Shown: one piece after another, positions 14,597 through 25,831 of the stretch
Layout: each line of letters opens with the position of its first letter
How positions within the stretch are numbered: position 1 is the first letter of the stretch
Source of the DNA: a virus
Strand: one strand, 5' to 3'
Virus record (IMG/VR): IMGVR_UViG_3300035228_001327
Span: 1-25,831 of that record
Length of the DNA: 25,831 nt
Position numbers and translations under genes: made by a program
The notes under the pieces: generated by a model
Database searches by the model: none
What the model was told of the DNA's origin: nothing
Seen by the model: the letters and a program-made list of their open reading frames with translations, nothing else

Positions 14597-15220
14597 ATGG
14601 CATATTTCGATAAAGTTCCAGAAATCCTATATTTAAAATACGACAAAAATCCAGAAAATGGTTCATTTATTACCATTAAGAACATTTTTGCTCGTATCAA
14701 ACTTATTGATGATATTGTACCATCAGCAACTATCTTTGATGATTACTTTATAAAGGATGGTGAAAGACCAGATACAATTTCTATGGATTATTATCAAGAT
14801 CCAGGTAATGACTGGATTATTATGATAATCAATAACATTAAAAATTTATATAATGACTGGCCATTGACGCACAGTGCATTTGAAGAGTACATGAACATAA
14901 CCTATGATGATTCAAGTGATATCCATCACTACGAAACTATTGAACAAGTTCACAATGAAAACATAGTTTTACCTGCTGGTCTTCAGGTTGGAGAAGCATA
15001 TCAATTCGTCACTCCAGACGGTAATGTAGTAAGTAAAGAAGAATCTAGAGGTCCAGTATCTAATTACATTTACGAATTACGTAAAAACGACAAAAAACGC
15101 AAGATCTACGTGCTGAGACCTGCGTTAGTTGATCAATTTATTGAAATCTTTGAGAATGAGATGAAATTTACTCCTAGTACAGAGTTTGTAAGTCAATCTC
15201 TTAAGATTAGTAGAAATTAA
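14597..15220 (+). CDS. 53: baseplate wedge protein gp53
   Basis: A 207-residue protein matching the T4 gp53 baseplate wedge family (196 residues in T4). The core signature is TIFDDYFIKDGERPDTISMDYY followed by GNDWIIMIINNIKNLYNDWPL. In T4, gp53 joins the wedges around the hub. The C-terminal half (DKKRKIYVLRPALVDQFIEIF) resembles the end of gp53-type proteins. It ends three bases before the stop of the convergent gene at 15224; no terminator is visible between them. Confidence 0.85.
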   Translation: MAYFDKVPEILYLKYDKNPENGSFITIKNIFARIKLIDDIVPSATIFDDYFIKDGERPDTISMDYYQDPGNDWIIMIINNIKNLYNDWPLTHSAFEEYMNITYDDSSDIHHYETIEQVHNENIVLPAGLQVGEAYQFVTPDGNVVSKEESRGPVSNYIYELRKNDKKRKIYVLRPALVDQFIEIFENEMKFTPSTEFVSQSLKISRN

Positions 15221-15223
15221 TAG

Positions 15224-15736
15224 TTATACCCATTCTGGTTTACGATCTGGCAACCTGAGGTAGTTATCAGATACCCATGGTTTAGATGCAATGTACATCT
15301 TGTATGCTTCCATGGTAGTGATGCTATCGTCTAATTTATACTCGTCAGGCATTGCCCTAACGAATGGTGTGTGACCTTCCCATTTCACATAAGGAATGAT
15401 CTCATCAGCAGCAATAAGAGTCCTATAGCAGGTATGGTTTTTTCCATACCGATTATAATACTCGTCACATAATGCAACGCCATGCTCAAACAACCATCTA
15501 GTATTTTCTATGGTTTCGTTTGCCCAGATAGTGCATGGATGATTACGGAATGCTCCTTTTTCCGTAGCATAGGGTGTGCCGTCTTTCTTGGGTAATGTGC
15601 CATACCCATGTCCCCACTTGTCTGAGGCGATTATAGAGAGCATCTGGCAGGTCTCCAGGGGCATCTTGACAATATGCTTGTCAGGTAGAACCTGTGCCGA
15701 CTTGACTGGACTTTCATTTGTGACGAAAATGTTCAT
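15224..15736 (-). CDS. conserved-type phage protein of unknown function
   Basis: A 170-residue protein starting MNIFVTNESPVKSAQVLPDKHIVKMPLETCQML. The 'MNIF…P..sAq.l.DKH.vKM.LE..QmLs' opening recurs in proteins of many phages; I know of no proven activity. Conserved-looking His, Asp and Lys residues (DKHIVKM, GHGYGT, FRNHPCTIWANE) hint at an enzyme or metal site. It is last in the small-gene chain, and its ATG overlaps the upstream stop as ATGA. It converges on gp53. Confidence 0.7.
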   Translation of the reverse strand: MNIFVTNESPVKSAQVLPDKHIVKMPLETCQMLSIIASDKWGHGYGTLPKKDGTPYATEKGAFRNHPCTIWANETIENTRWLFEHGVALCDEYYNRYGKNHTCYRTLIAADEIIPYVKWEGHTPFVRAMPDEYKLDDSITTMEAYKMYIASKPWVSDNYLRLPDRKPEWV

Positions 15737-15945
15737 ACTAAAAGTTTACTAAAGCTGATTGCTAGGAGGAACATAAGCATTATAACCACATCCCATGATT
15801 TTGTCAGTACAAAATATGGTACTGAAATCATATCTGCAACAAAATGTAATGCAACTCCAAGAGTTGTATTAATGTGAAGAACAACAAAATAGGCAGTAAT
15901 CACTAGGATACTACCAGTTATTCTCATCGGGACAATGATGTTCAT
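15733..15945 (-). CDS. small membrane protein
   Basis: A 70-residue protein with two or three hydrophobic segments (ITGSILVITAYFVVLHINTT, ALHFVADMISVPYF, WDVVIMLMFLLAISF). The layout, with a proline in the middle helix (SVPYF), loosely resembles one half-repeat of MtN3/SWEET-type small transporters, but this is a weak impression. It overlaps both neighbours by ATGA, so all three genes are translationally coupled. Confidence 0.7.
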   Translation of the reverse strand: MNIIVPMRITGSILVITAYFVVLHINTTLGVALHFVADMISVPYFVLTKSWDVVIMLMFLLAISFSKLLV

Positions 15946-16082
15946 TTTTTAGATTTTAACCAACAAGGTTTGCATAACGAATTTACCCAACTGCCATCAG
16001 GTGCTTGGTGTCCAACTTGAGGTGTTTCATTCGCTGGAACCATCTTACCACACTCAGAGCACTTTGTCTCCCACATCTTCAT
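15942..16082 (-). CDS. 46-residue zinc-ribbon-like protein
   Basis: An open frame from ATG at 16082 to TGA at 15942-15944 encodes 46 residues: a CSEC pair near the N-terminus (positions 8-11) and a CKPC pair at 37-40. These make a CxxC-x25-CxxC zinc ribbon, with WVNSL between them and a basic tail. It overlaps the upstream gene (TTATGA) and the downstream membrane protein gene (ATGA). Its place in an unbroken chain of four-base overlaps and the two matched Cys pairs make it a real gene despite its size. It may bind nucleic acid or a protein; the function is unknown. Confidence 0.75.
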   Translation of the reverse strand: MKMWETKCSECGKMVPANETPQVGHQAPDGSWVNSLCKPCWLKSKK

Positions 16083-16384
16083 AATGTTCTCTCTAATCGG
16101 TTTGTTGCTTGGTCTGGAAAATCTCTAGGACGACTATCTAACGCATTATCAGTTCTAGGCGAACCTTCATTTGCCTTCATCGTGTGTTGAAAGTTAATCC
16201 TCTTGTATCTAATGCAGAATGGGTCAGGCATCCAATATGTCACCTGCCAATTAATTAGTGGATTCAACTCAAGATGTTTCTCTACAGAATGATTAAAAAT
16301 GCCAATCTGAATATATCCATCATGAGTGACACAAGAGTTGTCACCGACTGACACGACAAATAGTTGTTTCAAAGAGTTCCTCAC
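16079..16384 (-). CDS. small protein, possible second part of a frame-split gene
   Basis: A frame of 101 codons from a GTG at 16384 to TGA at 16079. The protein-like core begins VVSVGDNSCVTHDGYIQIGIFNHSVEKHLELNPLINWQVTYWMPDPF and the C-terminus is polar. No Shine-Dalgarno precedes the GTG; a later GTG (VSVGD) is an alternative start. The frame overlaps the upstream 52-residue frame by 44 bases and lies in the +1 frame to it, so the two may be halves of one protein. Function unknown. Confidence 0.55.
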   Translation of the reverse strand: MRNSLKQLFVVSVGDNSCVTHDGYIQIGIFNHSVEKHLELNPLINWQVTYWMPDPFCIRYKRINFQHTMKANEGSPRTDNALDSRPRDFPDQATNRLERTL

Positions 16385-16499
16385 TGGGGTTGAGATTTTT
16401 CACAAATTGCACGGGATCCTTTTCGGACTTGTGTACCCAATGATAGCGTACACACTCAAATTCTGGATCCCATGTCTGGATACAGACATAATCTTTCAT
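16341..16499 (-). CDS. 52-residue hypothetical protein
   Basis: An open frame from ATG at 16499 to TGA at 16341-16343. It reads MKDYVCIQTWDPEFECVRYH and continues with WVHKSEKDPVQFV and ends TTICRVSR. The ATG overlaps the upstream stop as ATGA, which supports real translation. It ends inside the next gene's frame. It may be a short independent protein, or the N-terminal half of a longer protein joined with the 16079-16384 frame through a +1 shift. Confidence 0.6.
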   Translation of the reverse strand: MKDYVCIQTWDPEFECVRYHWVHKSEKDPVQFVKNLNPSEELFETTICRVSR

Positions 16500-16630
16500 T
16501 TGCGTTTCTTTCTAGGTTTCCGTTTACCGGTATGCTTCTTTACTAACTTGTTCAATTGTTCTGCATTCAACTTGTTAAGTTGTGCATTGACATACTTTAT
16601 CAATTTCTCTTTACATTCTGTTTTAGTCAC
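16496..16630 (-). CDS. small basic hypothetical protein
   Basis: A 44-residue protein from GTG at 16630 (VTKTECKEKLIKYVNAQ). A GGAG Shine-Dalgarno lies five bases upstream of the GTG, inside the preceding gene; ATG at 16645 is a possible alternative start, while longer starts overlap the upstream gene too deeply. It is helical (YVNAQLNKLNAEQLNKLV) and ends in a very basic tail (GKRKPRKKRK), suggesting nucleic-acid contact. It overlaps the next gene by ATGA. Confidence 0.5.
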   Translation of the reverse strand: MTKTECKEKLIKYVNAQLNKLNAEQLNKLVKKHTGKRKPRKKRK

Positions 16631-16937
16631 GTTGTCTCCAATCATCAGGTTTGTCTTGCTGAAACCAATTCTTGATGTCGTCAGCATCAGTGAATCCCTT
16701 TCTATGGTTGGATGGATCGGGATCACCTAAACCCATCCTATTCAGAAAATCGTCGGTACTGCCTTCTTCAATGTTTTGGGATGCTTGGCGTCTTGCCATC
16801 TTTAACATCTCATTAGCAGATGTATTTGCCTTTGCAAGTTTCTGTGCCCAGATCATATCATCTAGTTTTACATCATCATTATTTGCGATACGTTTACAAA
16901 TAAATTCCAGTCGTAGACGGTATTGTGTAGACAGCAT
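16623..16937 (-). CDS. conserved-type small protein downstream of gp32
   Basis: A 104-residue protein with a helical, charged N-terminal half (MLSTQYRLRLEFICKRIANNDD, LDDMIWAQKLAKANTSANEMLKMARRQ) and an acidic C-terminus containing FLNRMGLGDPDPSNHRKGF and WFQQDKPDDW. I do not recognise the family. It is the first gene after the gp32 terminator and inverted repeat, and a GATAAATA late-type box (16959-16966) lies 22 bases upstream, so it heads its own transcription unit that runs to 15224. Confidence 0.7.
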   Translation of the reverse strand: MLSTQYRLRLEFICKRIANNDDVKLDDMIWAQKLAKANTSANEMLKMARRQASQNIEEGSTDDFLNRMGLGDPDPSNHRKGFTDADDIKNWFQQDKPDDWRQRD

Positions 16938-16958
16938 AAATCTAAATCACATCTTGAT

Positions 16959-16966
16959 TATTTATC
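16959..16966 (-). promoter_or_regulatory. late-type promoter box for the 16937-15224 gene chain
   Basis: GATAAATA on the minus strand matches seven of eight bases of the T4 late box TATAAATA. It lies beyond the gp32 terminator and just before the first gene of the chain (ATG at 16937), so it probably restarts transcription there. Confidence 0.55.
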
Positions 16967-17033
16967 ATCGACCCTTTTGACCAATTTTTTGCCGGGGTTT
17001 TTTTCCCGACTTTTTTGAAACTAAAAGGTCGAT
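16967..17033. repeat. nested inverted repeat between gp32 terminator and late promoter
   Basis: Outer arms at 16967-16978 and 17023-17033 (plus: atcgacccttttg and aaaaggtcgat) pair with one bulged base. Inner arms at 16991-16996 and 17005-17010 (gccggg/cccgac) pair across a T-rich loop. On the plus strand the inner hairpin is followed by cttttttg, a terminator-like shape for rightward transcription, although no plus-strand gene is near. Confidence 0.6.
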
Positions 17034-17044
17034 TTTGTTTTGGC

Positions 17045-17076
17045 AAAAAAAAGGGGATCTTTTTTTAGACCCCCCT
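17045..17076 (-). terminator. Rho-independent terminator after gp32
   Basis: Just after the gp32 stop the minus strand forms an 8-pair stem (GGGGGTCT/AGATCCCC, one G-U pair) around an A-rich loop, followed by eight Ts. This should stop most transcription from the gp32 promoter. Confidence 0.85.
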
Positions 17077-17081
17077 TTATA

Positions 17082-17999
17082 TTACATCTCTTCGTTAGCA
17101 AGAGAGTCGAAGTAACTATAGTTGTCCTCATCCTTTTTAAGGAAAGGAGAACTTGATGTGATATCTGGATCATTAAATCCAGAGTTCAATGTACTCAGTT
17201 CTTCTTTCATAGAAGCAGGAACAGGCATCACTTCACGCTCTTCATCACGAACTTCTGCAGCAACACGGGCACCGCCAAGCACCATCCCAAGACGGGTCTT
17301 CAGTTCATCATATGACTTGAAGTTACTAGAAGCAGTGAACTCATTTAGATCATACATTTTGTTGTAGATCTCTTCCAATTGCTCGTCATCAAAACGACCA
17401 AGTGTTGAAGGGTTACCGAAAGCAGAAGCATCATAGTTCCAGAAACCTGCAACCTTCTTGATGCGAAGATTGAAGTCAGCACCTTGCCAAAGATCAAAAG
17501 GATTGACTGGTTCTTGACCCTTAAATTCAGGTTGCATAGATGCAATGATCTTGTCATGAATCTTCTTACCATACTTATAGAGGAAGACCTGACCTTCGTT
17601 CTGAGGGTTAGCAGGATCATCAATAACATAGATGTTGCTGTAGTAAGACAGTTTACGCTTCTGCTTACGTGCAACTTCCTTATCACTATCAAGACCGCTG
17701 TTCCACAACAGACGATTTGCCTCACTTACAGGATCTTGTTGTCCAAGAGTAGTAAGGGAGTTCTCAATGTACCATCCACCAGGACCTTGGAAAGCATGAC
17801 TCCATACTTTTGCCCAAGGCATATCAGAACCTTCGCTAGGAGGTAGGAATCGAATGATAGCACTACCTACACCATCTTTACCCATGGTAGGTTTCCAGAG
17901 TCGCTCATCGACATAACCTGAAACACCTTCTACCTTATTAATTTCTTTATTAAGCTTCTCTAGAAGAGAACCTTGTGTTTTAAGTGATCTGAAAGACAT
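17082..17999 (-). CDS. 32: single-stranded DNA-binding protein gp32
   Basis: A 305-residue T4 gp32 homologue (T4: 301). The basic N-terminal B-domain (MSFRSLKTQGSLLEKL) drives cooperative binding. The OB-fold core includes SAIIRFLPPSEGS, then KRKLSYYSNIYVIDDPANPQNEGQVFLYKYGKKIHDKI, a clear match to T4. The C-terminus is acidic and ends YFDSLANEEM, the tail that recruits gp59 and other partners. The T4 zinc-binding cysteines are absent; the protein has no cysteine at all. The ATG at 17999 has a GGAG site and its own promoter, and a strong terminator follows. Gp32 coats single-stranded DNA in replication, recombination and repair. Confidence 0.95.
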   Translation of the reverse strand: MSFRSLKTQGSLLEKLNKEINKVEGVSGYVDERLWKPTMGKDGVGSAIIRFLPPSEGSDMPWAKVWSHAFQGPGGWYIENSLTTLGQQDPVSEANRLLWNSGLDSDKEVARKQKRKLSYYSNIYVIDDPANPQNEGQVFLYKYGKKIHDKIIASMQPEFKGQEPVNPFDLWQGADFNLRIKKVAGFWNYDASAFGNPSTLGRFDDEQLEEIYNKMYDLNEFTASSNFKSYDELKTRLGMVLGGARVAAEVRDEEREVMPVPASMKEELSTLNSGFNDPDITSSSPFLKKDEDNYSYFDSLANEEM

Positions 18000-18009
18000 T
18001 TGTATTCTC

Positions 18010-18043
18010 CGTATTGTTTGGATTGTGTCGTATTGACTGGATT
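18010..18043 (-). repeat. direct repeat in the gp32 leader
   Basis: Two copies of the 15-base unit AATCCANNCAATACG (18029-18043 and 18010-18024, 19-base period) lie between the gp32 -10 box and its Shine-Dalgarno. The first copy spans the predicted start of RNA; the second is fully in the leader, next to GGAG. The leader looks unstructured and A-rich, as expected of a gp32 self-binding site. Confidence 0.7.
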
Positions 18044-18072
18044 ATCATAGCATAGTCACTAGTCATTGTCAA
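18044..18072 (-). promoter_or_regulatory. sigma70-type promoter of gp32
   Basis: TTGACA (18067-18072), a 17-base spacer and TATGAT (18044-18049) on the minus strand. The -35 box lies within the last codons of the DUF1825 gene, so gp32 can be made on its own at a high level as well as from upstream readthrough. RNA would start near 18037. Confidence 0.8.
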
Positions 18073-18403
18073 GGAACTGGGAACGCAAGTTCTGAATAGA
18101 CGAGCGACCTAGTTTAAAAATCTCAGGTCCAATCTCCGTGGTGGGCATCCCCATCCTCTTTGCTTGGGTTCTGAAATTTTCCTTTACTGTCTGACTATCT
18201 TCGTCATTGGAAAGATTCACTCTTGTATATAGGATCTCCTGCATATCAATTAATCTTTCCATTTTCTTAAGAAGTTGTTCCTTCTCATCATCTGATTGCA
18301 TTTGTATTAGAGGCAGTGACATATAAATTTCTTTATATAATTCATGCATTGACTCTACTTCTTTGCGAACAATCTCTGATGAGAATAAATTCTTGTCATT
18401 CAT
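18059..18403 (-). CDS. DUF1825-like protein between gp59 and gp32
   Basis: A 114-residue, mostly helical protein. The opening FSSEIVRKEVESMHELYKEIY, then LLKKMERLIDMQEILYTRVNLSND and a KENFRTQAKRMGM segment, match the pattern of DUF1825, a family of short proteins found mainly in cyanobacteria and their phages. Its biochemical role is unknown to me. It lies between the helicase loader gp59 and the ssDNA-binding protein gp32 and overlaps gp59 by ATGA, which suggests a replication- or transcription-linked job and co-translation with gp59. Confidence 0.75.
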   Translation of the reverse strand: MNDKNLFSSEIVRKEVESMHELYKEIYMSLPLIQMQSDDEKEQLLKKMERLIDMQEILYTRVNLSNDEDSQTVKENFRTQAKRMGMPTTEIGPEIFKLGRSSIQNLRSQFLDND

Positions 18404-18972
18404 AGTTTCTGTAGTACCATTTGCTTAATTCGTGTTGGATCCTCCTCAATAAAAGGATCATACTTATGTAGAAGAAACGATAACTGCTTCCAGATAACAT
18501 CATCCTTCAATAAGTTATCATACCTACTAACAAAATCAGTAATTTTGTTTAGCATAATGAGGGTTTCCAACATCACCCTACCACCAAGATATGATTTCAG
18601 TAATTGAGAATGTCCCCTACTACATTTGAATACCTCATTAAAATTTGTTGAAAGAGTAGAAAGATTTTCAATATCCTGCCCAAACAAATAAGTAATACTC
18701 TGCATCTTTCTCTTCCACTCCATATAATTCTTGTCATTCATCTGAAGGACATGAAAATTAGAGTTGACTAGAAAATTAGATACAAAGTATTGTTCTAGTT
18801 CTTCTGCTGTATATTTTCTGGAGAGTTTCTCAAAAAAGTAAACATCATTCCTCTCCATAAATTTTTCTTGAGATACTTTAATACTTCCTTGGTAGTGAAA
18901 GTAATCATATGTTTTACGACTAAAGTGTGTCTTCAGTGCAACATAAATTTGATAAACCTCAAAAGGGTACAT
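18400..18972 (-). CDS. 59: gp59 replicative helicase loader
   Basis: A 190-residue homologue of T4 gp59 (217). Matching features are VYQIYVALKTHF near the N-terminus, VSQEKFMERNDVYFFEKLSRKYTAEELEQYFVSNFLVN (T4 has a closely similar RRDKYFFQKLSEKYKLKEL), LFGQDIENL, and a helical C-terminal domain with VIWKQLSFLLHKYDPF. Gp59 binds gp32-coated forks and loads the gp41 helicase. It starts two bases after gp33, as in the T4 33-59-32 order, and ends in an ATGA overlap with the DUF1825 gene. Confidence 0.85.
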   Translation of the reverse strand: MYPFEVYQIYVALKTHFSRKTYDYFHYQGSIKVSQEKFMERNDVYFFEKLSRKYTAEELEQYFVSNFLVNSNFHVLQMNDKNYMEWKRKMQSITYLFGQDIENLSTLSTNFNEVFKCSRGHSQLLKSYLGGRVMLETLIMLNKITDFVSRYDNLLKDDVIWKQLSFLLHKYDPFIEEDPTRIKQMVLQKL

Positions 18973-18974
18973 AA

Positions 18975-19244
18975 TTAAATAGGTAGAACACCTCTGGTTG
19001 TTTTTTTAATGTAGTTAAGACGAGTTGCCTCTGCCTTAATCTTTTCTTTCAGTGAGGGTGCAATCAATTTTACAACTGATTCAATCTCAAGGTCTTTTGA
19101 ATCACAAAAATCAACAATAGCATCAATGTAATTTAATGTCTTGTTACTATCTTTGACAATGTTTTCAATAGTCATTGAAAACTTGTTCTTGTCCATAAAG
19201 TTCTCGTCAATAAGTTCATTAATGTTTTTGTTTTTAGTGGGCAT
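18975..19244 (-). CDS. 33: gp33 late transcription coactivator
   Basis: An 89-residue protein from the ATG at 19244 (MPTKNKNINEL). The pattern FSMTIENIVKDSNKTLNYIDAIVDFCDSKDLEI followed by VVKLIAPSLKEKIKAEATRLNYI aligns with T4 gp33 (FIIEKMVEEF…YLEATTAFLEEN…EKIQSEA). Gp33 bridges RNA polymerase and the sliding clamp and, with the gp55 sigma factor, switches on late promoters. It overlaps the upstream exonuclease gene by 11 bases and lies next to gp59, the T4 gene order. A TTG five codons upstream is a less likely start. Confidence 0.8.
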   Translation of the reverse strand: MPTKNKNINELIDENFMDKNKFSMTIENIVKDSNKTLNYIDAIVDFCDSKDLEIESVVKLIAPSLKEKIKAEATRLNYIKKTTRGVLPI

Positions 19245-19896
19245 CTTTGTACTCTGCAATGTAATCTTTTAGCAGAGGAACATAATCTTCAGGATCTTTA
19301 ACAAAAATTTGTGTGTCCCCTGTTTGGCATGTGATTAAAGTAACGATCTGATCGACCTTGATACCAGATCGTTCCTCATACATCTTAGCATACCCTGTCT
19401 CTTGAACAAAATAACTTTCAATCCAAGATTCTTTCTTTTCTTTACCAGAAGTTTTAAAATCTATAATTGAAAGTTTGTTGTCAAACTCAGCAATACAATC
19501 AACCCTGCCAGCGATCCCAAACTCATGACTATAGAGAGGTGCCTCTTGGAAATGAATGTTGTTGATTCTACTGAGCATGGACTTTGCTTGATTGAATAGT
19601 ATCAAAGCAAGATAGTCGTTTTTATACTTATCTAAACTAAGATCATTGTTTAGATAATCTTCGACAATACTATGTAGTTTTGTCCCAACATTTGCTGCAC
19701 GGGATGAGATTTTATTTGCTTCCTCATTCCCTACTCTCTTCCTCCATTCTGCAATTGACTTGCGTTTACGATAGGAACAGATAGTAGACATAGATGTATA
19801 CTGACTATCACCTACAGCATAAAATCTCTTTCCACTAGGAGCAGTAGTCGCCTTGATGTCCTCAAGGAGGACACCCATATTAACATGATTAAACAT
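19234..19896 (-). CDS. PD-(D/E)XK exonuclease (RecB/Cas4-like)
   Basis: A 220-residue nuclease of the RecB-like PD-(D/E)XK fold. Residues visible in order: GTKLHSIVEDYL (the H..E helix), HEFGIAGRVDCIAEF (motif II Asp), LSIIDFKTSGKEK (D-x-K) and YFVQETGYAKMYEE (Q..Y motif). These belong to the MGME1/Cas4-type exonuclease group, often found in cyanophages. It probably trims DNA ends in replication, recombination or host DNA breakdown. The ATG at 19896 overlaps the PhoH stop (TAATG). Confidence 0.8.
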   Translation of the reverse strand: MFNHVNMGVLLEDIKATTAPSGKRFYAVGDSQYTSMSTICSYRKRKSIAEWRKRVGNEEANKISSRAANVGTKLHSIVEDYLNNDLSLDKYKNDYLALILFNQAKSMLSRINNIHFQEAPLYSHEFGIAGRVDCIAEFDNKLSIIDFKTSGKEKKESWIESYFVQETGYAKMYEERSGIKVDQIVTLITCQTGDTQIFVKDPEDYVPLLKDYIAEYKDAH

Positions 19897-20651
19897 TAAG
19901 CAAACCCAAGGTGCATTTTACTGATGATGTAACTCTTGATGAGTCCACTTCTTACGATGTCATTGACATCAAATTCAATACTTTCAAACTCATCCATAAC
20001 CTCAAGAATTTTCATGAAGTCAAGGATACCATTCTTCTCATTCGTTTTGATAAGATCAGTTTGAAGAGCATCACCTGCAAAAATAATCTTACAGTTCTGT
20101 CCAACACGTGTAATAATTGAATCTAATTCATGGAAGTTTAGATTCTGACATTCATCAACAATGACAATAGAATTGTCTAGTGTAGTACCACGAAGGAATG
20201 AAGTAGACCAGAACGAAATAGTTTCCTGTGCTTTCAGATTGTCATACAACATGTTATATGCTGGATCATCAGGCATCTTGAACATATGCTCAACCATATT
20301 CTTATATGGAATCTGATACAAATTTGACTTGTCATCATGATCTCCAGGGAGGAAACCAATCTCTCTTGTAGGTACAAGAGATCTAACTAAGTACAGTTTC
20401 TCATATGATGAAGTGCCAGTCAAGATTTCTCTCAATGCTAAGTACATAGCAACAAAAGTTTTACCTGTACCGGCACATCCATAAAGAAACAAATGCTTTC
20501 CTGCATCGTAAGCATCAAATGCTTTAATTTGATTATCAGTAAGAGGTTCAACCTCTCTCAGATGCTCAATATTGATTGGTTTCTTACGTCTCATTTGCTT
20601 TGGAGTGCTGTTAGCAAAATCGAACTGGGTGTCCTTTCTTCTTCTTGGCAT
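19896..20651 (-). CDS. phoH: PhoH-like ATPase
   Basis: A 251-residue PhoH-family P-loop protein. Walker A is GCAGTGKT (about residue 58-65), preceded by LTDNQIKAFDAYDAGKHLFL. LVRSLVPTREIGFLPG is the PhoH signature loop, SIVIVDECQNLNFHEL holds Walker B, and IIFAGDALQTDL the sensor region. PhoH is a core cyanophage gene. Despite the name its role in phosphate stress is not proven, and an ATP-dependent RNA or nucleic-acid function is likely. It begins MPRRRKDTQF, six bases after the upstream gene. Confidence 0.9.
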   Translation of the reverse strand: MPRRRKDTQFDFANSTPKQMRRKKPINIEHLREVEPLTDNQIKAFDAYDAGKHLFLYGCAGTGKTFVAMYLALREILTGTSSYEKLYLVRSLVPTREIGFLPGDHDDKSNLYQIPYKNMVEHMFKMPDDPAYNMLYDNLKAQETISFWSTSFLRGTTLDNSIVIVDECQNLNFHELDSIITRVGQNCKIIFAGDALQTDLIKTNEKNGILDFMKILEVMDEFESIEFDVNDIVRSGLIKSYIISKMHLGFA

Positions 20652-20656
20652 AAACT

Positions 20657-20890
20657 TTAATGAGTGTCGATGTTAGATCTAATGTTTGCTTTTTTAATTG
20701 ACTTCAGAACATCCCTAAACCCGTCAGGAACTTTATTCTTGACGCCAGCATCAGCAACAACACCAGGAAATGAATCATGATACTGTTCAAGATGGGGATT
20801 ATCCAGTTTATATTTATCGAGAACCGTAAAACTCATACGAGTTTCAGTGATCTCTCCAGTGTCTTTATTCCTGAACTGGTACGTCGGCAT
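20657..20890 (-). CDS. MPTYQFR-type small conserved protein
   Basis: A 77-residue protein from the ATG at 20890, preceded by a strong purine-rich GGGGGAAGG ribosome site; upstream starts would overlap the previous gene deeply. It begins MPTYQFRNKDTGEITE, the opening of FmdB-type zinc-ribbon proteins, but lacks their cysteines. The C-terminus (KVPDGFRDVLKSIKKANIRSNID) is a basic helix. Small cysteine-free relatives of this kind sit near phoH in cyanophages. The function is unknown. It overlaps the previous gene by 26 bases. Confidence 0.7.
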   Translation of the reverse strand: MPTYQFRNKDTGEITETRMSFTVLDKYKLDNPHLEQYHDSFPGVVADAGVKNKVPDGFRDVLKSIKKANIRSNIDTH

Positions 20891-21101
20891 CGCCTTCCCC
20901 CTCTTTCGTTTTATTGAATCCAAAAGGACCTGCTGATTTTTCTTCTAGTGCTACCTTTAATGCAACACCACCGACTGCCTCCATACATTTAAGAATGTCT
21001 TCGGTCTTAGCACCTTCACCAAGTTCTTTGGCAATGTACCAATACTTTGGCCAGAATGTTTCTCCTGCCCTTTGATAATCATCAAGTGTTAGTAGTTTCA
21101 T
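20865..21101 (-). CDS. small conserved-type hypothetical protein
   Basis: A 78-residue protein with a compact, probably helical core (LTLDDYQRAGETFWPKYWYIAKELGEG, TEDILKCMEAVGGVALKVALEE) and a charged C-terminus that overlaps the next gene. The gene begins within the last 20 bases of thyX. It is one of a run of tightly overlapped small genes. I do not recognise the family. Confidence 0.65.
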   Translation of the reverse strand: MKLLTLDDYQRAGETFWPKYWYIAKELGEGAKTEDILKCMEAVGGVALKVALEEKSAGPFGFNKTKEGEGDADVPVQE

Positions 21102-21738
21102 GGGTTGTCCATCCTAATGCTTCAGCGACTATTGGAAATTGACCTGCAAACAAACACTTACATTCATTTGCAATGTCCATGTGTTCTTTCTGTGTTCCAT
21201 TAGCGGAACGCAGATCGATATAATGAATCCATGACCGAACTGATCCAGTCATGTAAATTTTGGTTGGTACGGCAAGGGGAAGCACAAAACGAGCACATTC
21301 CTTTGCAATACCTTGGGCAAGCATCTCACGATAAAGATCCATACCTTCAGCAAAATAGTTTTGCATTGCGATTTCAAATCTTTGCCTAGTAAAGGCATCG
21401 ATATCATCGATACTATTCTGCCGGTTCTTTGTATCCTGACGACGAAGTTCTGGTAGAGGAATGACATCCGTCAACATAGAACTGTCAGCATACCGTTGTG
21501 AAAATTCTTGATAGGTGAAGGACCTATGACGCAGTATCTGTGCCGCCAGTCCCCTGGTGGTCTGGATCTCAAGCGTCATGTATGCCTGCTCAAAGACGCT
21601 CCAATGGTTGTGTTTGATGCAATAGGATAAAAGACCAGCAACCTTTGGATTGTCTTGATTGTTAGGGTTGCTCACCCTTGCCACGTACCCCATGTGTGCT
21701 TCAGCATCTGGGGTAACACTAATAACTTTAACCTGCAT
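21082..21738 (-). CDS. thyX: flavin-dependent thymidylate synthase ThyX
   Basis: A 218-residue ThyX enzyme, which makes dTMP from dUMP using FAD, NADPH and methylene-tetrahydrofolate. The diagnostic motif RHRSFTYQEFSQRY fits the ThyX RHRxx(S/T)xxxxSxR signature with Thr at the first variable site. HNHWSVFEQAYMTLEIQTTRG and SWIHYIDLRSANGTQKEHM are further family blocks. It supplies thymidine nucleotides for phage replication and stands in for host thymidylate synthase. The ATG at 21738 overlaps the previous gene by 11 bases. Confidence 0.95.
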   Translation of the reverse strand: MQVKVISVTPDAEAHMGYVARVSNPNNQDNPKVAGLLSYCIKHNHWSVFEQAYMTLEIQTTRGLAAQILRHRSFTYQEFSQRYADSSMLTDVIPLPELRRQDTKNRQNSIDDIDAFTRQRFEIAMQNYFAEGMDLYREMLAQGIAKECARFVLPLAVPTKIYMTGSVRSWIHYIDLRSANGTQKEHMDIANECKCLFAGQFPIVAEALGWTTHETTNT

Positions 21739-21943
21739 AATATGCTAAAAAATACTTTACAATGCCAGACGAACTGACGTGTCCTTGAGAGACCCAATCA
21801 TGACAGCAATTTTGAATACTCTCCATGCTATGCAAAGGTTCTCCATTTTCTTTTGTCAAACCACCATACTTATTAAGAAGAATGGTGTACACCGTTTGGC
21901 GTAGTTCCATACGCTCTTCGTTGTAGCGCCAATCAGTTCTCAT
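21728..21943 (-). CDS. small conserved-type hypothetical protein
   Basis: A 71-residue protein (MRTDWRYNEERMELRQTVYTILLNKYGG…) with a two-helix look, a paired cysteine (NCC) and a hydrophobic C-terminus (GIVKYFLAYYAG). It overlaps the upstream gene by ATGA and thyX by 11 bases, so the three are coupled. I do not recognise it. Confidence 0.65.
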   Translation of the reverse strand: MRTDWRYNEERMELRQTVYTILLNKYGGLTKENGEPLHSMESIQNCCHDWVSQGHVSSSGIVKYFLAYYAG

Positions 21944-22326
21944 TTTTTTTCTTTTTTAGGTTTGTTACCCCATTGCTTCGGATTAATCATACCATACCAT
22001 TGCTCCATTGTCAAGATATGTCCACCTGCTGCTTTTAAAAGATCATAATAGGCATCAAAAATCTTGACGTACTTAGGTCCTGAAACATGATCATGCTTTA
22101 CTTGACCATTAATTACATAAGATACTAGTACTGCATTGTATGGAAATTGTTTCTTATCAATGCTTTCTGGATTGCAATCGTGAGAGAAAACTACTACCTC
22201 ATACTTATTAAGTAATAGTTTTTTATCTTCCTCAGTTAAGTTGAACTGTACTGATGAGTTCTCTGATTCGATCTTCACAGAATCCTGGGTTTGAGAGTAC
22301 GACTCTGTTGAAAGTTTCTCGCTCAT
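21940..22326 (-). CDS. hypothetical protein
   Basis: A 128-residue protein. The first ~30 residues are polar and Ser-rich, followed by a compact domain: LLLNKYEVVVFSHDCNPESIDKK, AVLVSYVINGQVKHDHVSGPKYVKIFDAYYDLLKAAG and a basic tail (NKPKKEKK). The ATG at 22326 has a good AGAGGAG site. It opens the block that runs through thyX. Function unknown. Confidence 0.65.
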   Translation of the reverse strand: MSEKLSTESYSQTQDSVKIESENSSVQFNLTEEDKKLLLNKYEVVVFSHDCNPESIDKKQFPYNAVLVSYVINGQVKHDHVSGPKYVKIFDAYYDLLKAAGGHILTMEQWYGMINPKQWGNKPKKEKK

Positions 22327-22390
22327 TATGCTCCTCTTGTATGCATTTTTTAATCATGTAAATTACCCTAGTTTCATTGACAATGCTCAC

Positions 22391-22816
22391 TCATTCACTC
22401 CAGGTAATTTCAGGAAAAGCTTCTTTGATAACTGCATGAGTGACTCTAAATTTTGTTTGAAGAAGACCATCTTTAGCAAGACAAACAATCTCTGCCTCAG
22501 ATTCATGAAGACCTTCAAGCAATTGAATAAACAACTGCTCTCTCTTCAATCTAGATAAAGAATTAGCACCTTTAACAAATCTCCAAAGATTACGATACTC
22601 TCTTTCTAATACAGTATGCTCTGTACCGATGGGAGCATCGTTTTTATTGAAGGGTACGTCACCTTCAGGTAGATCGGATTGAATATTAACATCATAGTTC
22701 CATTTGAAAATGGAACGAAGTGCTTGAGTATTGTTTTCTTGAAGAATTTTAATCTTCTCGGTTTTTGTTTTGGCATTAGATGCCTTCTTAATAACTTCAG
22801 AAATCAAAAGTTTCAT
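22391..22816 (-). CDS. conserved-type phage protein (DUF6433-like)
   Basis: A 141-residue, largely helical protein (MKLLISEVIKKASNAKTKTEKIKILQENN). The pattern NTQALRSIFKWNYD, LEREYRNLWRFVKGANSLSRLKREQLFIQLLEGLHESEAEIVCLAKDG is the layout of a family widespread in T4-like phages, known to me as DUF6433, with no proven activity. A CTAAATA box at 22846-22852 lies upstream. Gene length and the conserved W and R positions look normal for the family. Confidence 0.7.
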   Translation of the reverse strand: MKLLISEVIKKASNAKTKTEKIKILQENNTQALRSIFKWNYDVNIQSDLPEGDVPFNKNDAPIGTEHTVLEREYRNLWRFVKGANSLSRLKREQLFIQLLEGLHESEAEIVCLAKDGLLQTKFRVTHAVIKEAFPEITWSE

Positions 22817-22845
22817 TAGTAATACAAATAGGTCGTGTGTTTTAG

Positions 22846-22852
22846 TATTTAG
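22846..22852 (-). promoter_or_regulatory. late-type promoter box overlapping a stop codon
   Basis: The minus strand reads GGACTAAATAC. The TAA stop of the upstream membrane protein gene lies inside CTAAATA. RNA would start near 22840, leaving a leader of about 24 bases before the ATG at 22816. Confidence 0.45.
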
Positions 22853-23190
22853 TCCTCGGGAAATGGATCAGTATCAAAGGCATCTCTCTGATCAAATTCT
22901 ACACTGATAAGTTTAGAAACTTGAAAAGGAATAGGGTTACCTTCTTCATCCATCATCTCTGGGTGTGGAGTGTATGCAACCTGCTCTTCTGTTTGTTCTC
23001 CGATAAGAGTATCAACAAAACTAACAAAATATGAGTGAGCAAACCATCCAAATAAAAATCCAAGTAGTGTTCCACCTAGTGTGATTAGTGTAGAAAATAC
23101 TAGAATAACTGAGGTTGTCATCTGTCTGTCTCCGTGCTTAGGTTCAACCGTTTTCGCTATTGGTCCTGGTCGTTTCCTCCTAAGACGCAT
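22849..23190 (-). CDS. small membrane protein with basic N-terminus
   Basis: A 113-residue protein from the ATG at 23190, preceded by AAAGGTGAC at ~8 bases. A start at 23274 would overlap the upstream gene by 71 bases out of frame and lacks a good ribosome site. The N-terminus is basic (MRLRRKRPGPIAK), then a hydrophobic segment (VILVFSTLITLGGTLLGFLFGWFAH, ~35-60), then an acidic C-terminus facing the opposite side. No family is recognised. Confidence 0.65.
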   Translation of the reverse strand: MRLRRKRPGPIAKTVEPKHGDRQMTTSVILVFSTLITLGGTLLGFLFGWFAHSYFVSFVDTLIGEQTEEQVAYTPHPEMMDEEGNPIPFQVSKLISVEFDQRDAFDTDPFPED

Positions 23191-23203
23191 AAATTCGTCA
23201 CCT

Positions 23204-23578
23204 TTATTTATGGGTGACCTTAGTTCTTCGGTTTTTAGTTCCAGGTTTTCGTCCTGGTCTTCGTTCTTGTTCATACTTCCATGCGTCTGTAAGAATTTTG
23301 TACAAATAATCTTTAACTCTACGTGCTTTTGGTATACTTAGATGACCATATGCTTGGTTAGAAATTTCATCTCCACCTTTAATGTAGAGTTCTAAATCAA
23401 ACACAATACTAGACAAGTTTGCTGCAGTAGAACTTTCAATAAAATCTCTAATCTCAAAACGTTTAAACTCAGATTGTTTTACGTAAACATAGAGATCAAA
23501 TAAAAACTTCTCTTCAAAAGCATCATCAATTGATTTCTCTACGAGATAATAGAGTTCATCAGTTTCTTTGAATGTCAT
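23204..23578 (-). CDS. conserved-type hypothetical protein
   Basis: A 124-residue helical protein (ELYYLVEKSIDDAFEEKFLFDLYVYVK, FEIRDFIESSTAANLSSIVFDLELYI) with a basic C-terminal tail (RRPGRKPGTKNRRTKVTHK) that could bind nucleic acid. The ATG at 23578 overlaps the glutaredoxin stop (TAATG), so the two are probably co-translated. No family recognised. Confidence 0.7.
   Translation of the reverse strand: MTFKETDELYYLVEKSIDDAFEEKFLFDLYVYVKQSEFKRFEIRDFIESSTAANLSSIVFDLELYIKGGDEISNQAYGHLSIPKARRVKDYLYKILTDAWKYEQERRPGRKPGTKNRRTKVTHK
23205..23212 (-). promoter_or_regulatory. possible late-type box overlapping a stop codon
   Basis: CATAAATA on the minus strand carries the TAA stop of the 124-residue gene. 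It lies only 14 bases before the next ATG, so a start of RNA there would leave little room for the ribosome site. I consider it weak. Confidence 0.3.
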
Positions 23579-23814
23579 TAGATTAGTTTATTTTCTTGAA
23601 AATAATGAAGGGTATCTTTAAACCCACCAATATGTTTTTCATTGATAGCAATTTGTGGGAAAGTAGCACCTTCACCAAACTCAGCATAGAACTGAGATTT
23701 AGTAAAGTCCCTCTCATACTTATACTCTTTGTAGTGTACGTCCAGGTTATCAAAGAGCATCTTTGCCCTATCACACCACTGACATTCATTCTTTGAATAA
23801 AGAATTACTTCCAT
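23578..23814 (-). CDS. glutaredoxin-like protein
   Basis: A 78-residue glutaredoxin/thioredoxin-fold protein. The start MEVILYSKNECQWC at 23814 is preceded by AAGGAGG, the strongest ribosome site nearby, though it is only 2 bases from the ATG; longer starts reach back into the promoter. The active site is CQWC (about residues 11-14), TFPQI gives the cis-proline and HIGGF the GG motif. It probably reduces ribonucleotide reductase or other proteins, as T4 nrdC does. The promoter at 23840-23868 lies just upstream, and the thyX/phoH nucleotide genes follow. Confidence 0.85.
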   Translation of the reverse strand: MEVILYSKNECQWCDRAKMLFDNLDVHYKEYKYERDFTKSQFYAEFGEGATFPQIAINEKHIGGFKDTLHYFQENKLI

Positions 23815-23839
23815 AACCTCCTTAGGAATTACTGTAGGA

Positions 23840-23868
23840 ATCATAGCATAAAAAAGGAGGGTCGTCAA
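23840..23868 (-). promoter_or_regulatory. sigma70-type promoter whose -35 lies in a terminator loop
   Basis: TTGACG (23863-23868), 17 bases, TATGAT (23840-23845) on the minus strand. The -35 box coincides with the loop of the terminator hairpin at 23857-23873, and the terminator T-run forms part of the spacer. It fires toward the glutaredoxin gene with an AAGGAGG site at its start. Confidence 0.65.
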
Positions 23869-23873
23869 CCCTC
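23851..23873 (-). terminator. terminator after the small membrane protein gene
   Basis: A six-pair stem GAGGGT/ACCCTC around a TGACG loop is followed by CTTTTTT on the minus strand. It lies six bases after the stop at 23880, supporting that upstream frame as a real gene. Confidence 0.75.
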
Positions 23874-23879
23874 TCACAT

Positions 23880-24083
23880 CTAAAAATTTAATTTGTAGCA
23901 AGAAGATCTTGCCAGTTCTGGCGTCTTCTTGAGTGTTCTATACACATGACCATGCACATCTGTTTCTAAACTATGATGTGCTCTAGTGTGAACGATCTGA
24001 ATCAGCAGTAACATACCAATCAACGTAAAGTTAATCATACTTACTGGATGACACAGAGCTTCAAAAATCTTTTTTCCTAGCAT
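23880..24083 (-). CDS. small membrane protein
   Basis: A 67-residue frame with a hydrophobic helix (MINFTLIGMLLLIQIVHTR, ~16-33) and a polar, His-rich C-terminal part (AHHSLETDVHGHVYR). The first ATG (MLGKKIFEAL) follows directly on the upstream terminator without a ribosome site. The second, MINFTLIG, has a weak AGTAAG and gives 52 residues. Terminators on both sides make it a single-gene unit, but I see no clear promoter of its own. Confidence 0.5.
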   Translation of the reverse strand: MLGKKIFEALCHPVSMINFTLIGMLLLIQIVHTRAHHSLETDVHGHVYRTLKKTPELARSSCYKLNF

Positions 24084-24107
24084 AAAAAAAGGGAACCGAA
24101 GTTCCCC
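24084..24107 (-). terminator. terminator after the outer-membrane-like gene
   Basis: GGGAAC-TTCG-GTTCCC on the minus strand, a perfect six-pair stem capped by a stable UUCG tetraloop, is followed by seven Ts. Confidence 0.9.
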
Positions 24108-24122
24108 ATATTCTAGCAGAGA

Positions 24123-24494
24123 TCAGAAGGAATACTTCAGACCCAATTTGGTTCCATAACCACGGTCGATGTCAGAATCACCTGAACCAACGAAGGACAC
24201 TTCACCATATGCACCGAGAGCATCGGTCAAACCGATACCAAGACCTGCCTTACCAGAAGGAACGGTGTCACTTTCGCCGCCATCAGGACTGACAACAGTA
24301 GCACCACCCTGGACGTAGTATGAAGCACTCTCACCGAGTTCGCCTTCATAACCAACGTGAAGGTCGGTAGCAGTTCCATTGTAGCTGGATCCCGTGAATC
24401 CTGAGTTTGCTTCTACGTTAACGTAGGGTCCTGCGAAAGCAGCACCAGCAGAGAAAGCAGTTGCAGACAGTGCTGCGAATACAGATTTAATCAT
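24123..24494 (-). CDS. small secreted outer-membrane-like beta-barrel protein
   Basis: A 123-residue protein with a clear Sec signal peptide: MIKSVFAALSATAFSAGAAFA, cleaved before GPYVNVEAN. The mature ~100 residues alternate in beta-strand fashion with Gly-rich turns (TDLHVGYEGELGES, SYYVQGGATVV, KAGLGIGLTDALGAYGEVSFVG) and end GTKLGLKYSF, a C-terminal Phe signature typical of outer membrane proteins. I infer insertion in the host outer membrane or a periplasmic, surface role. The ribosome site AAAGG lies ~10 bases upstream, and a strong terminator follows. Most phage genes lack signal peptides. Confidence 0.8.
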   Translation of the reverse strand: MIKSVFAALSATAFSAGAAFAGPYVNVEANSGFTGSSYNGTATDLHVGYEGELGESASYYVQGGATVVSPDGGESDTVPSGKAGLGIGLTDALGAYGEVSFVGSGDSDIDRGYGTKLGLKYSF

Positions 24495-24575
24495 TTTGTT
24501 TAATTACCTTTAGTTACTTGCGGAATGGTTACCCGCAGATGAATAGAGACATCGACTTGTCTCGTTGTTAAATAT

Positions 24576-24619
24576 ACAACTGTCACATGCAAAAATACTT
24601 ATTTAAATGTGACAGTTGT
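24576..24619. repeat. 13-base inverted repeat upstream of the outer-membrane-like gene
   Basis: Perfect arms acaactgtcacat (24576-24588) and atgtgacagttgt (24607-24619) flank an 18-base spacer that carries TTAAATA on the minus strand (24600-24606), a late-type box. The arms may be a pair of operator sites around the promoter, or a hairpin in the leader. A shorter pair, tatgtat/atacata, lies at 24624-24646. Confidence 0.75.
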
Positions 24620-24650
24620 AATATATGTATACAAATAGAATACATACACA

Positions 24651-24673
24651 TGTCAGGAGTTAAACACCTGACA
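24651..24673 (-). terminator. hairpin just downstream of tRNA-Ser
   Basis: TGTCAGG and CCTGACA form a seven-pair stem around a nine-base loop, one base after the tRNA 3' end. There is no T-run, so it may be a processing or protection hairpin rather than a true terminator. The rest of the 180-base gap to the next gene holds only the repeats listed above. Confidence 0.5.
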
Positions 24674-24674
24674 A

Positions 24675-24761
24675 CGGAGAGTGAGAGAATCGAACTCTCA
24701 AGGGCTTTAACACCTCGACGCTTTTCAAGAGCGGTTCCGTCACCTATCGGATTGACTCTCC
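24675..24761 (-). tRNA. tRNA-Ser (anticodon UGA)
   Basis: An 87-base class II tRNA. The acceptor stem GGAGAGT/ACTCTCC is fully paired, with discriminator G as in serine tRNAs. The anticodon stem CGCT/AGCG frames the loop CTTGAAA giving UGA. A long variable arm follows, then GAGAG-TTCGATT-CTCTC as the T-arm. No CCA is encoded. It reads UCA codons. The promoter at 24954-24982 lies ~190 bases upstream. Confidence 0.95.
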
Positions 24762-24940
24762 AAGAAAACTTTTTCGTTTTCATATGGTTTTGTTTGACCA
24801 GACCAGAGTTTGTATCCTTCTACAACCTCTGGCAATAACCATCTATGAACGGGAGCACATTGCTCCCAGTTGACTGGTTGAATGCAATTCATTACGACTA
24901 CATTCCAGAACGCTACAAGGTGGATTAATACGCTTTGCAT
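24740..24940 (-). CDS. possible small protein ending inside tRNA-Ser
   Basis: A 66-codon frame from ATG at 24940. The second half looks protein-like (VNWEQCAPVHRWLLPEVVEGYKLWSGQTKPYENEK), with internal ATG at about residue 17 as an alternative start. It runs into the 5' end of tRNA-Ser by 22 bases. No clear ribosome site is seen. The predicted RNA start at ~24948 lies only eight bases upstream, so this could instead be a long tRNA leader. Low confidence. Confidence 0.3.
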   Translation of the reverse strand: MQSVLIHLVAFWNVVVMNCIQPVNWEQCAPVHRWLLPEVVEGYKLWSGQTKPYENEKVFLESQSDR

Positions 24941-24953
24941 TGCTCATGTGGGT

Positions 24954-24982
24954 ATGATACTACATTCAACTCCATTTGTCAA
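24954..24982 (-). promoter_or_regulatory. sigma70-type promoter before tRNA-Ser
   Basis: TTGACA (24977-24982), 17 bases and TATCAT (24954-24959) on the minus strand. The TGA stop of the zincin-like gene lies inside the -35 box. It shares the GGGGGTTGACAA context with the promoter at 720-748 and drives the tRNA-Ser region. Confidence 0.7.
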
Positions 24983-25650
24983 CCCCCCTCAAGGTATCCA
25001 TTTATTTGCAACCACTCACGTGTCTTTGGTGTGGGTGTATAGATCTCCCACATAGCACCACCTTCACATGCTTCGAGTGCTTCCATGGTCATGTTCTCAG
25101 TTTTACCTGCCCAGGTTGCTTCTTTCTCCCATGGCCACGCTGACTCAGGATAGGTACGTTCTACCATTTCACGCCACAGCATTGGAACATTGCCTTCAGG
25201 CATGATAAGAGCAATCATACTATTATCAATGGTGCCTGCCATACAATCTTGTGCAGCGTGCCATCCTTCATGTCTCATCACAGACATAAGAGTAGCAGGA
25301 TCAAACATGTATGAGTCATTCAAATAGAAAGTATTAGTTACCGTATGATAGACACCACGGTGACCTGGTGGGAAATACTTTTCATCAGCAAGATATACTT
25401 GCACGTCAATCATAGTAAGTGCATTCAACATACGTTGAAACTCTTCTGCAACTGGTGCATAATTTGATAGTGGATACTCTTCTACAAGATAATCAATGCC
25501 CCAAACAGGATCTACGTTATCAGTACATTCTCCAAGGAGAAGACACCCAAGAGAATCCATACTCTTGTATCCTTGCGTAATCTTATCGTCGTTAGCGAGG
25601 ACGGGAGATGCCGCCATCATCAACGCAATTAAAACTGACAGTTTCTTCAT
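24979..25650 (-). CDS. secreted zincin-like metallopeptidase (HEGWH)
   Basis: A 223-residue protein from the ATG at 25650, preceded by GGAG at nine bases; a start six codons earlier would spoil the signal peptide. It has a Sec signal (MKKLSVLIALMMAASPVLA, then NDD). The mature domain holds VMRHEGWHAAQDC, an HExxH zinc motif with two helical histidines (about residue 130-140). A downstream acidic helix (WEKEATWAGKTENM) may give the third ligand, a Glu as in gluzincins. I infer a periplasmic or exported peptidase acting on the host envelope or another phage protein. Substrate unknown. Confidence 0.7.
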   Translation of the reverse strand: MKKLSVLIALMMAASPVLANDDKITQGYKSMDSLGCLLLGECTDNVDPVWGIDYLVEEYPLSNYAPVAEEFQRMLNALTMIDVQVYLADEKYFPPGHRGVYHTVTNTFYLNDSYMFDPATLMSVMRHEGWHAAQDCMAGTIDNSMIALIMPEGNVPMLWREMVERTYPESAWPWEKEATWAGKTENMTMEALEACEGGAMWEIYTPTPKTREWLQINGYLEGG

Positions 25651-25831
25651 GTTGTAATACTCCATCAATAAATTTTATAAGTTTCCTCGGTAGAGGAGCA
25701 TAGAGTGTATCCCATTTAGCAGGATATACTTCTATGGTTTTTGAAAGTAAGATAGGACTTACTTTTCCATGATTACCGTTGGGAGTAACGTTCCAACCTA
25801 CTGCTGCATTTATATCAAAGTCAGCAGTTCC
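25592..25831 (-). CDS. C-terminal fragment of a protein cut by window edge
   Basis: Eighty codons enter from the right edge in frame and end with TAA at 25592-25594. The translation (…ADFDINAAVGWNVTPNGNHGKVSPILL…YAPLPRKLIKFIDGVLQ…) is protein-like until about codon 60; the last ~20 codons overlap the start of the zincin-like gene by 59 bases in another frame. I cannot identify it. Confidence 0.55.
   Translation of the reverse strand, partial: GTADFDINAAVGWNVTPNGNHGKVSPILLSKTIEVYPAKWDTLYAPLPRKLIKFIDGVLQHEETVSFNCVDDGGISRPR

Follow-up and report, generated by a model that had tools for sequence, protein, structure and literature searches.

Can one stretch of 34 bases both end the transcript of one gene and start that of the next? 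The question is raised by the junction ahead of a glutaredoxin gene in a virus record of 25,831 bases (the window, by which we mean this whole stretch of DNA), which we regard as a cyanomyovirus contig because its closest matches are mostly T4-like Synechococcus and Prochlorococcus phages. An earlier note had described a hairpin, a T-run, TTGACG, a 17-base spacer and TATGAT at this junction, and all of these parts were found, on the minus strand. In window coordinates, the features are as follows.

23880-24083, minus strand: upstream ORF, 67 aa (PHROG 2587, function unknown)
23873-23840, minus strand: candidate nested element overall, comprising hairpin, T6 and -35/extended -10 (34 bases)
23857-23873, minus strand: terminator-type hairpin GAGGGT-TGACG-ACCCTC, 6 pairs, or 7 counting a T-G pair
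23863-23868, minus strand: -35 hexamer TTGACG, bases 2-6 of which are the hairpin loop
23850-23855, minus strand: T6 run, separated from the stem by one C (C23856) and lying inside the promoter spacer
23840-23848, minus strand: extended -10, TG C TATGAT (TG at 23848-23847, TATGAT at 23845-23840)
23817-23823, minus strand: ribosome-binding-type sequence AAGGAGG, ahead of the glutaredoxin start at 23814
23578-23814, minus strand: glutaredoxin gene, 78 aa (Pfam PF00462, E 6.6e-12), downstream of the predicted promoter

Specifically, the upstream ORF ends at a TAG stop codon (23882-23880), and the hairpin begins six bases further on. It is followed on the minus strand by C, six T, ATGC, TATGAT, a short leader containing AAGGAGG, and the glutaredoxin ATG. 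The 5′ stem arm ends with the first T of TTGACG, such that the loop in the strict sense is TGACG, and the spacer from TTGACG to TATGAT is exactly 17 bases. A GC-rich hairpin with a T-run directly after it is a feature of intrinsic terminators, and the one observed here is a predicted terminator for the upstream gene. The predicted promoter, TTGACG-17-TGC-TATGAT, scores 10 of 12 in a generic scan of 15000-25831, and with the usual spacing between -10 and start it would begin an RNA at about 23833.

In terms of chance, the RNA hairpin of 17 bases has a folding energy of -8.7 kcal/mol, which none of 200 shuffles attained, and the hairpin with its flanks (33 bases) folds at -9.7 kcal/mol, with 2 of 200 shuffles as good. 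One full module is present in the window, as against none in 200 first-order Markov copies of it, and a hairpin with a -10 but no -35 arose in 1 of the 200 Markov copies. The weak points of the window element are a -35 that misses the last consensus base and a hairpin of moderate stability (-8.7).

With respect to other signals in the window, an Rfam search returned tRNA only. A second terminator (GGGGAACTTCGGTTCCC, T7) lies at 24083-24107 on the minus strand, and its T-run abuts the ATG of the 67-residue ORF. With no space left for a ribosome site, that ORF may have its true start further inside or may be read otherwise. A strong promoter (TTGACA, 17 bases, TATGAT with TG) at 18072-18044, also on the minus strand, has ATGCTATGAT in common with the nested one; no such hairpin is listed for it.

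Covariation among glutaredoxin relatives

The decisive evidence for the element, at the level of sequence, is its conservation in relatives. IMG/VR was scanned with the glutaredoxin protein alone, and the best 80 of 206 loci were analyzed. Within these 80, the module was present in the same place in all 36 loci with at least 74% glutaredoxin identity, and none was seen by eye in the 110 bases 5′ of the gene in the other 44 (41-72% identity). S-H38 and Syn9 likewise showed none within 150 bases upstream of their glutaredoxin genes.

The comparison set of 37 sequences, the window included, contains 16 distinct elements. Their stem arms vary (GAGGG/CCCTC, GGGGGG/CCCCCC, GGGGTC/GACCCC, GCAGGG/CCCTGC and others), and all 80 core stem positions, counted in pair registers that we chose for each loop length, are nonetheless standard pairs, 3 of them G-T. 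When the 3′ bases were re-dealt, the number of pairs averaged 65.3 (sd 2.0), and 80 was reached in none of 5000 trials. Registers were set per loop length because the MAFFT alignment is gapless and mixes loop lengths; with a single register applied to every row, 51, 68, 74 and 67 of 80 positions pair (registers 22-25). Across the same 16 elements, TTGAC, TG and TA...T are invariant and the 17-base spacing is fixed. A stem kept by compensation together with a loop kept by sequence is what two overlapping functions would predict. RNA hairpin and DNA promoter have apparently been selected on the same bases with distinct signatures, the stem retaining pairing without sequence and the loop retaining sequence without change.

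Recurrence beyond the glutaredoxin locus

A strict pattern gave 3 matches in 11 named genomes, each with one mismatch, and because it matched so few we adopted general hairpin scans. These covered five complete cyanophages (Syn9, P-SSM4, S-N03, S-H9-2 and ACG-2014f; 931 kb), 80 PhoH-gene neighborhoods from contigs (775 kb) and, for comparison, RB49, T4 and KVP40 (578 kb), with exact duplicate rows removed. A strong or extended -10 stood 5-12 bases past the stem at 24 of 139 terminators in the five cyanophages and at 31 of 172 in the PhoH contigs, as against 1 of 173 in RB49, T4 and KVP40 (none with a -35). Seventeen bases upstream of the -10, the match to TTGACA averaged 3.21 of 6 in the five cyanophages, compared with 1.36 (sd 0.22) for the same position at other terminators, and 4.43 of 6 in the PhoH contigs, compared with 1.57 (sd 0.20); for these means one near-duplicate was also removed (31 to 30). 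The -35 matched in at least 4 of 6 positions in 16 of the 24 cyanophage cases (ACG-2014f 8, P-SSM4 3, S-H9-2 3, S-N03 2, Syn9 0) and was poor in 8. No full module was present in Markov copies of these genomes (five per genome), nor in the whole genome of Syn9. The -10 threshold misses weaker modules, among them one of ACG-2014f at 38058 and that of P-SSM4 before nrdC (TATGTT), which a looser scan lists.

Since geometry alone brings the -35 close to the loop once the -10 is near the stem, the terminator-based offset tally is partly built in, and promoters were therefore also used as the starting point. This count is the freer test, and no T-run was demanded in it. A hairpin lay on the -35 of 17 of 489 promoters in the five cyanophages, 43 of 536 in the PhoH contigs and 1 of 426 in RB49, T4 and KVP40. 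Behind these hairpin promoters a T-run (at least 5 of 8) followed in 9 of 17 cases in the five cyanophages and 40 of 43 in the PhoH contigs, versus 8% for promoters without a hairpin. The glutaredoxin locus itself accounts for 7 of the 43, and the T-run is kept in 33 of the remaining 36. Both cyanophage-type sets show a -10 peak 7-11 bases beyond the stem, which RB49, T4 and KVP40 do not, and the looser scan found 6 weak overlaps in those three genomes beside 25 in the five cyanophages. As a separate observation, hairpin centers in RB49, T4 and KVP40 cluster at distances of 11 and 21-22 bases beyond the -35 center of promoter-like sites (11, 7 and 8 cases).

Within IMG/VR, the TTGAC-loop pattern was found in 70 stretches and a second form in 19, and the first form with a scrambled loop in 1. 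Classified by closest proteins against a small reference set, 88 of these pattern stretches divide into 75 that are mostly cyanophage, 3 from the T4 group and 10 that are neither.

Taken together, the joint conservation and the recurrence give good support to the proposal of the earlier note that one element of about 34 bases combines a terminator and a glutaredoxin promoter, at the level of sequence features. The search in related phages that it had suggested found the module in all 36 loci of at least 74% identity among the best 80 of 206, and again at other loci in four of five complete cyanophage genomes and in the PhoH contigs. Judged by such sequence comparisons, the element is not a product of chance. 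We consider it likely to be a nested terminator-promoter, in which a predicted intrinsic terminator and a predicted host-sigma promoter occupy common bases.

The first pattern also returned 19 stretches from 84,980 bacterial and archaeal genomes. We rejected these as examples of the element, since a stem of at least 5 bp is present in 1 of the 19, versus 33 of 47 distinct stretches in IMG/VR, and 13 of the 19 are Bacillaceae promoters. The Bacillaceae stretches (L342, L344, L345, L347-L349, L351, L352 and L354-L358) have the -35 flanked by a short GGG..CCC and, behind the -10, a TACCC..GGGTA-type repeat that is not terminator-like and that we take to resemble a CsoR-type operator.

Readings of the overlap

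With respect to mechanism, we infer RNA ends, sigma factor, infection timing, termination, initiation and any coupling from the features described above. The transcript of the upstream gene would fold GAGGGU...ACCCUC and then be released in the U-run. As double-stranded DNA, the same bases would present a host sigma-70-type polymerase with a -35 in the loop and an extended -10 behind the T-run. A new transcript, its leader about 19 bases long, would then run from about 23833 and serve glutaredoxin and the genes after it. The sharing of bases would fit both signals into 34 bases, and the downstream unit would be insulated from upstream transcription and have its own start.

The earlier note had also suggested that a passing polymerase could affect the promoter. 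This is plausible, because a polymerase that terminates or reads through would cover the -35/-10 region. A more specific proposal is that the overlap itself is functional, with the polymerase that releases its RNA in the T-run restarting on the same promoter; we regard this as unlikely. The release site does fall between the -35 and the -10. Moreover, purified bacterial polymerase that has terminated intrinsically mostly remains on the DNA and can restart at promoters close by, according to the relevant portions of two reports (PMC6978380, PMC6978322). The situations are alike in that a terminator near a promoter could feed a restart; in the passages concerned, however, the systems are purified and E. 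coli-type and the units stand apart (PMC6978380, PMC6978322), and any coupling at the present element would be putative. Against the proposal, restart is mostly in the reverse direction in the relevant part of PMC6978322, a polymerase sitting on the promoter could equally block it, an outcome as easy to imagine, and genome compactness accounts for the overlap without any coupling. It is similarly doubtful that upstream transcription feeds the downstream gene despite the cut in the RNA. For cyanophages more generally, we attach a low probability to a nested relay, in which polymerase that finishes one transcript is thereby brought to a promoter in the terminator's loop, and think it improbable that chains of small genes are read as coupled but separately cut RNAs, with regulation beyond compaction. 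If the relay were true, it would be a novel form of regulation and more than a way of saving space, and the element provides a natural construct with which to ask whether terminator-released polymerase restarts at an overlapping promoter.

It is very unlikely that the element is a terminator only, with an accidental likeness to -35 and -10 and with glutaredoxin transcribed by read-through or from another promoter. Such a reading agrees with the regional counts, as terminator-like sites in 15000-25831 are in excess over shuffles (18 vs 5.7) and promoter-like sites are no commoner than in shuffles (34 vs a mean of 32.8). It is at odds with TTGAC, the 17-base spacing and TG-N-TA, which stay invariant in 16 elements while the stems vary, and with the scrambled-loop control (1 vs 70 stretches). 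A palindromic operator, in which the inverted repeat round the -35 would be the site of a dimeric regulator rather than a terminator, is highly improbable. Although the repeat is centered on the -35, its arms change while their pairing stays, unlike a sequence-specific site, a T-run stands behind 40 of 43 such hairpins versus 8% of other promoters, and the element comes directly after stop codons. Finally, the DNA cruciform raised in the earlier note, whose extruded hairpins would make the -35 accessible or inaccessible according to supercoiling, is not supported and was set aside as extremely improbable: the repeat is perfect, but its arms are only 6 bp, and opening the 17-bp duplex would cost about 24 kcal/mol (nearest-neighbour sum, without supercoiling) against the 9.3 kcal/mol that two single-strand hairpins return (4.7 + 4.6).

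Neighboring genes and PeSL cassettes

The nested terminator-promoter favored here can be compared with the PeSL (promoter-early stem-loop) cassettes of T4-type phages, which were reportedly described by Arbiol et al. 2010 and Comeau et al. 2014. The details of their definition extend to recombination between copies and mini-circles. In the relevant passages of a study of S-PM2, a PeSL is a stem-loop terminator plus a sigma-70-like promoter, intergenic and tied to gene shuffling, and PeSL-driven gain is judged unlikely for that phage's own ORF-rich region (PMC4503421). Our element is alike in that a terminator stem-loop and a sigma-70-like promoter share one intergenic cassette. Specifically, a predicted stem-loop terminator with a T-run lies upstream of the gene that would be started, and the predicted promoter (TTGACG-17-TGC-TATGAT) has a core that is invariant in relatives. 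The difference is one of arrangement. In RB49 the -35 lies 28-46 bases past the loop center in 12 of 12 pairs found, i.e., in tandem, and the PeSL parts are separate, whereas in our element the loop doubles as the -35 and the T-run falls within the spacer. We read the element as a putative nested PeSL-like variant, the cyanophage form of which would merge the two parts of a PeSL.

In the literature searched, to which most subscription papers and the founding PeSL papers were external, we found no description of a -35 within a terminator loop, and those two founding papers may already describe the nested form. A cyanomyovirus survey, in the part that bears on this point, used one program for promoter prediction and another for terminators (PMC3037559). 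The morons of lambdoid phages are also alike in being exchangeable genes with their own start and stop signals; as portrayed in the pertinent section of PMC1524935, however, a separate promoter and terminator flank the inserted gene, whereas a single element is shared here. A gene behind such an element could take its start signal along when it moves, which has been proposed for the T4-type PeSL cassettes.

In terms of genomic placement, part of the modules were set against annotation, with ACG-2014f, S-N03 and S-H9-2 each represented by a selection. All 7 modules in ACG-2014f at 26-47 kb are at co-directional gene junctions, one overlapping the preceding stop codon, and so are all 4 compared in P-SSM4, which lie after gp32, before a helicase gene, within a small-gene cluster and before nrdC. 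The nrdC module has an unrelated stem (gagacctg/caggtctc) with TTGACA and TATGTT. In S-H9-2, one module precedes a high-light-inducible gene and another overlaps an annotated ORF start. Module-like matches whose loops are weak as a -35 were found in S-N03 (TTAAAG, intergenic) and in S-H34 (TTAAAT, over an annotated ORF start). The element may provide a compact rule for locating transcription-unit borders in cyanophages, whose small genes mostly lack annotation.

Near-identical elements can adjoin unrelated upstream DNA. In pairs of the L027/L030, L029/L033 and L007/L008 type, the elements are 92-97% identical and the genes 92-98%, and the upstream 100 bases are 52-54% identical (48-54% over all pairs of this kind). 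Because random 100-base pieces of the same loci reach this level (49%, sd 4%), homology in these pairs ends at the hairpin, a border at the element of the kind associated with gene shuffling in PeSL. Other pairs keep their upstream homology (the window and L006, 91%; L030/L033, 90%; L018/L025, 100%). Turnover at the element fits the PeSL idea, and recombination may be the route of exchange. The window holds 1 copy in 25.8 kb, and ACG-2014f has 12 hairpin-plus-minus-10 sites, 8 of them with a -35, that share stretches with one another, and parts of its modules recur across the genome. Behind the ACG-2014f modules at 42066 and 45746 (L361; KJ019152, 39.5-55.7 kb) there is also a leader, roughly 25-35 bases long, with 12 further matches ahead of small genes.
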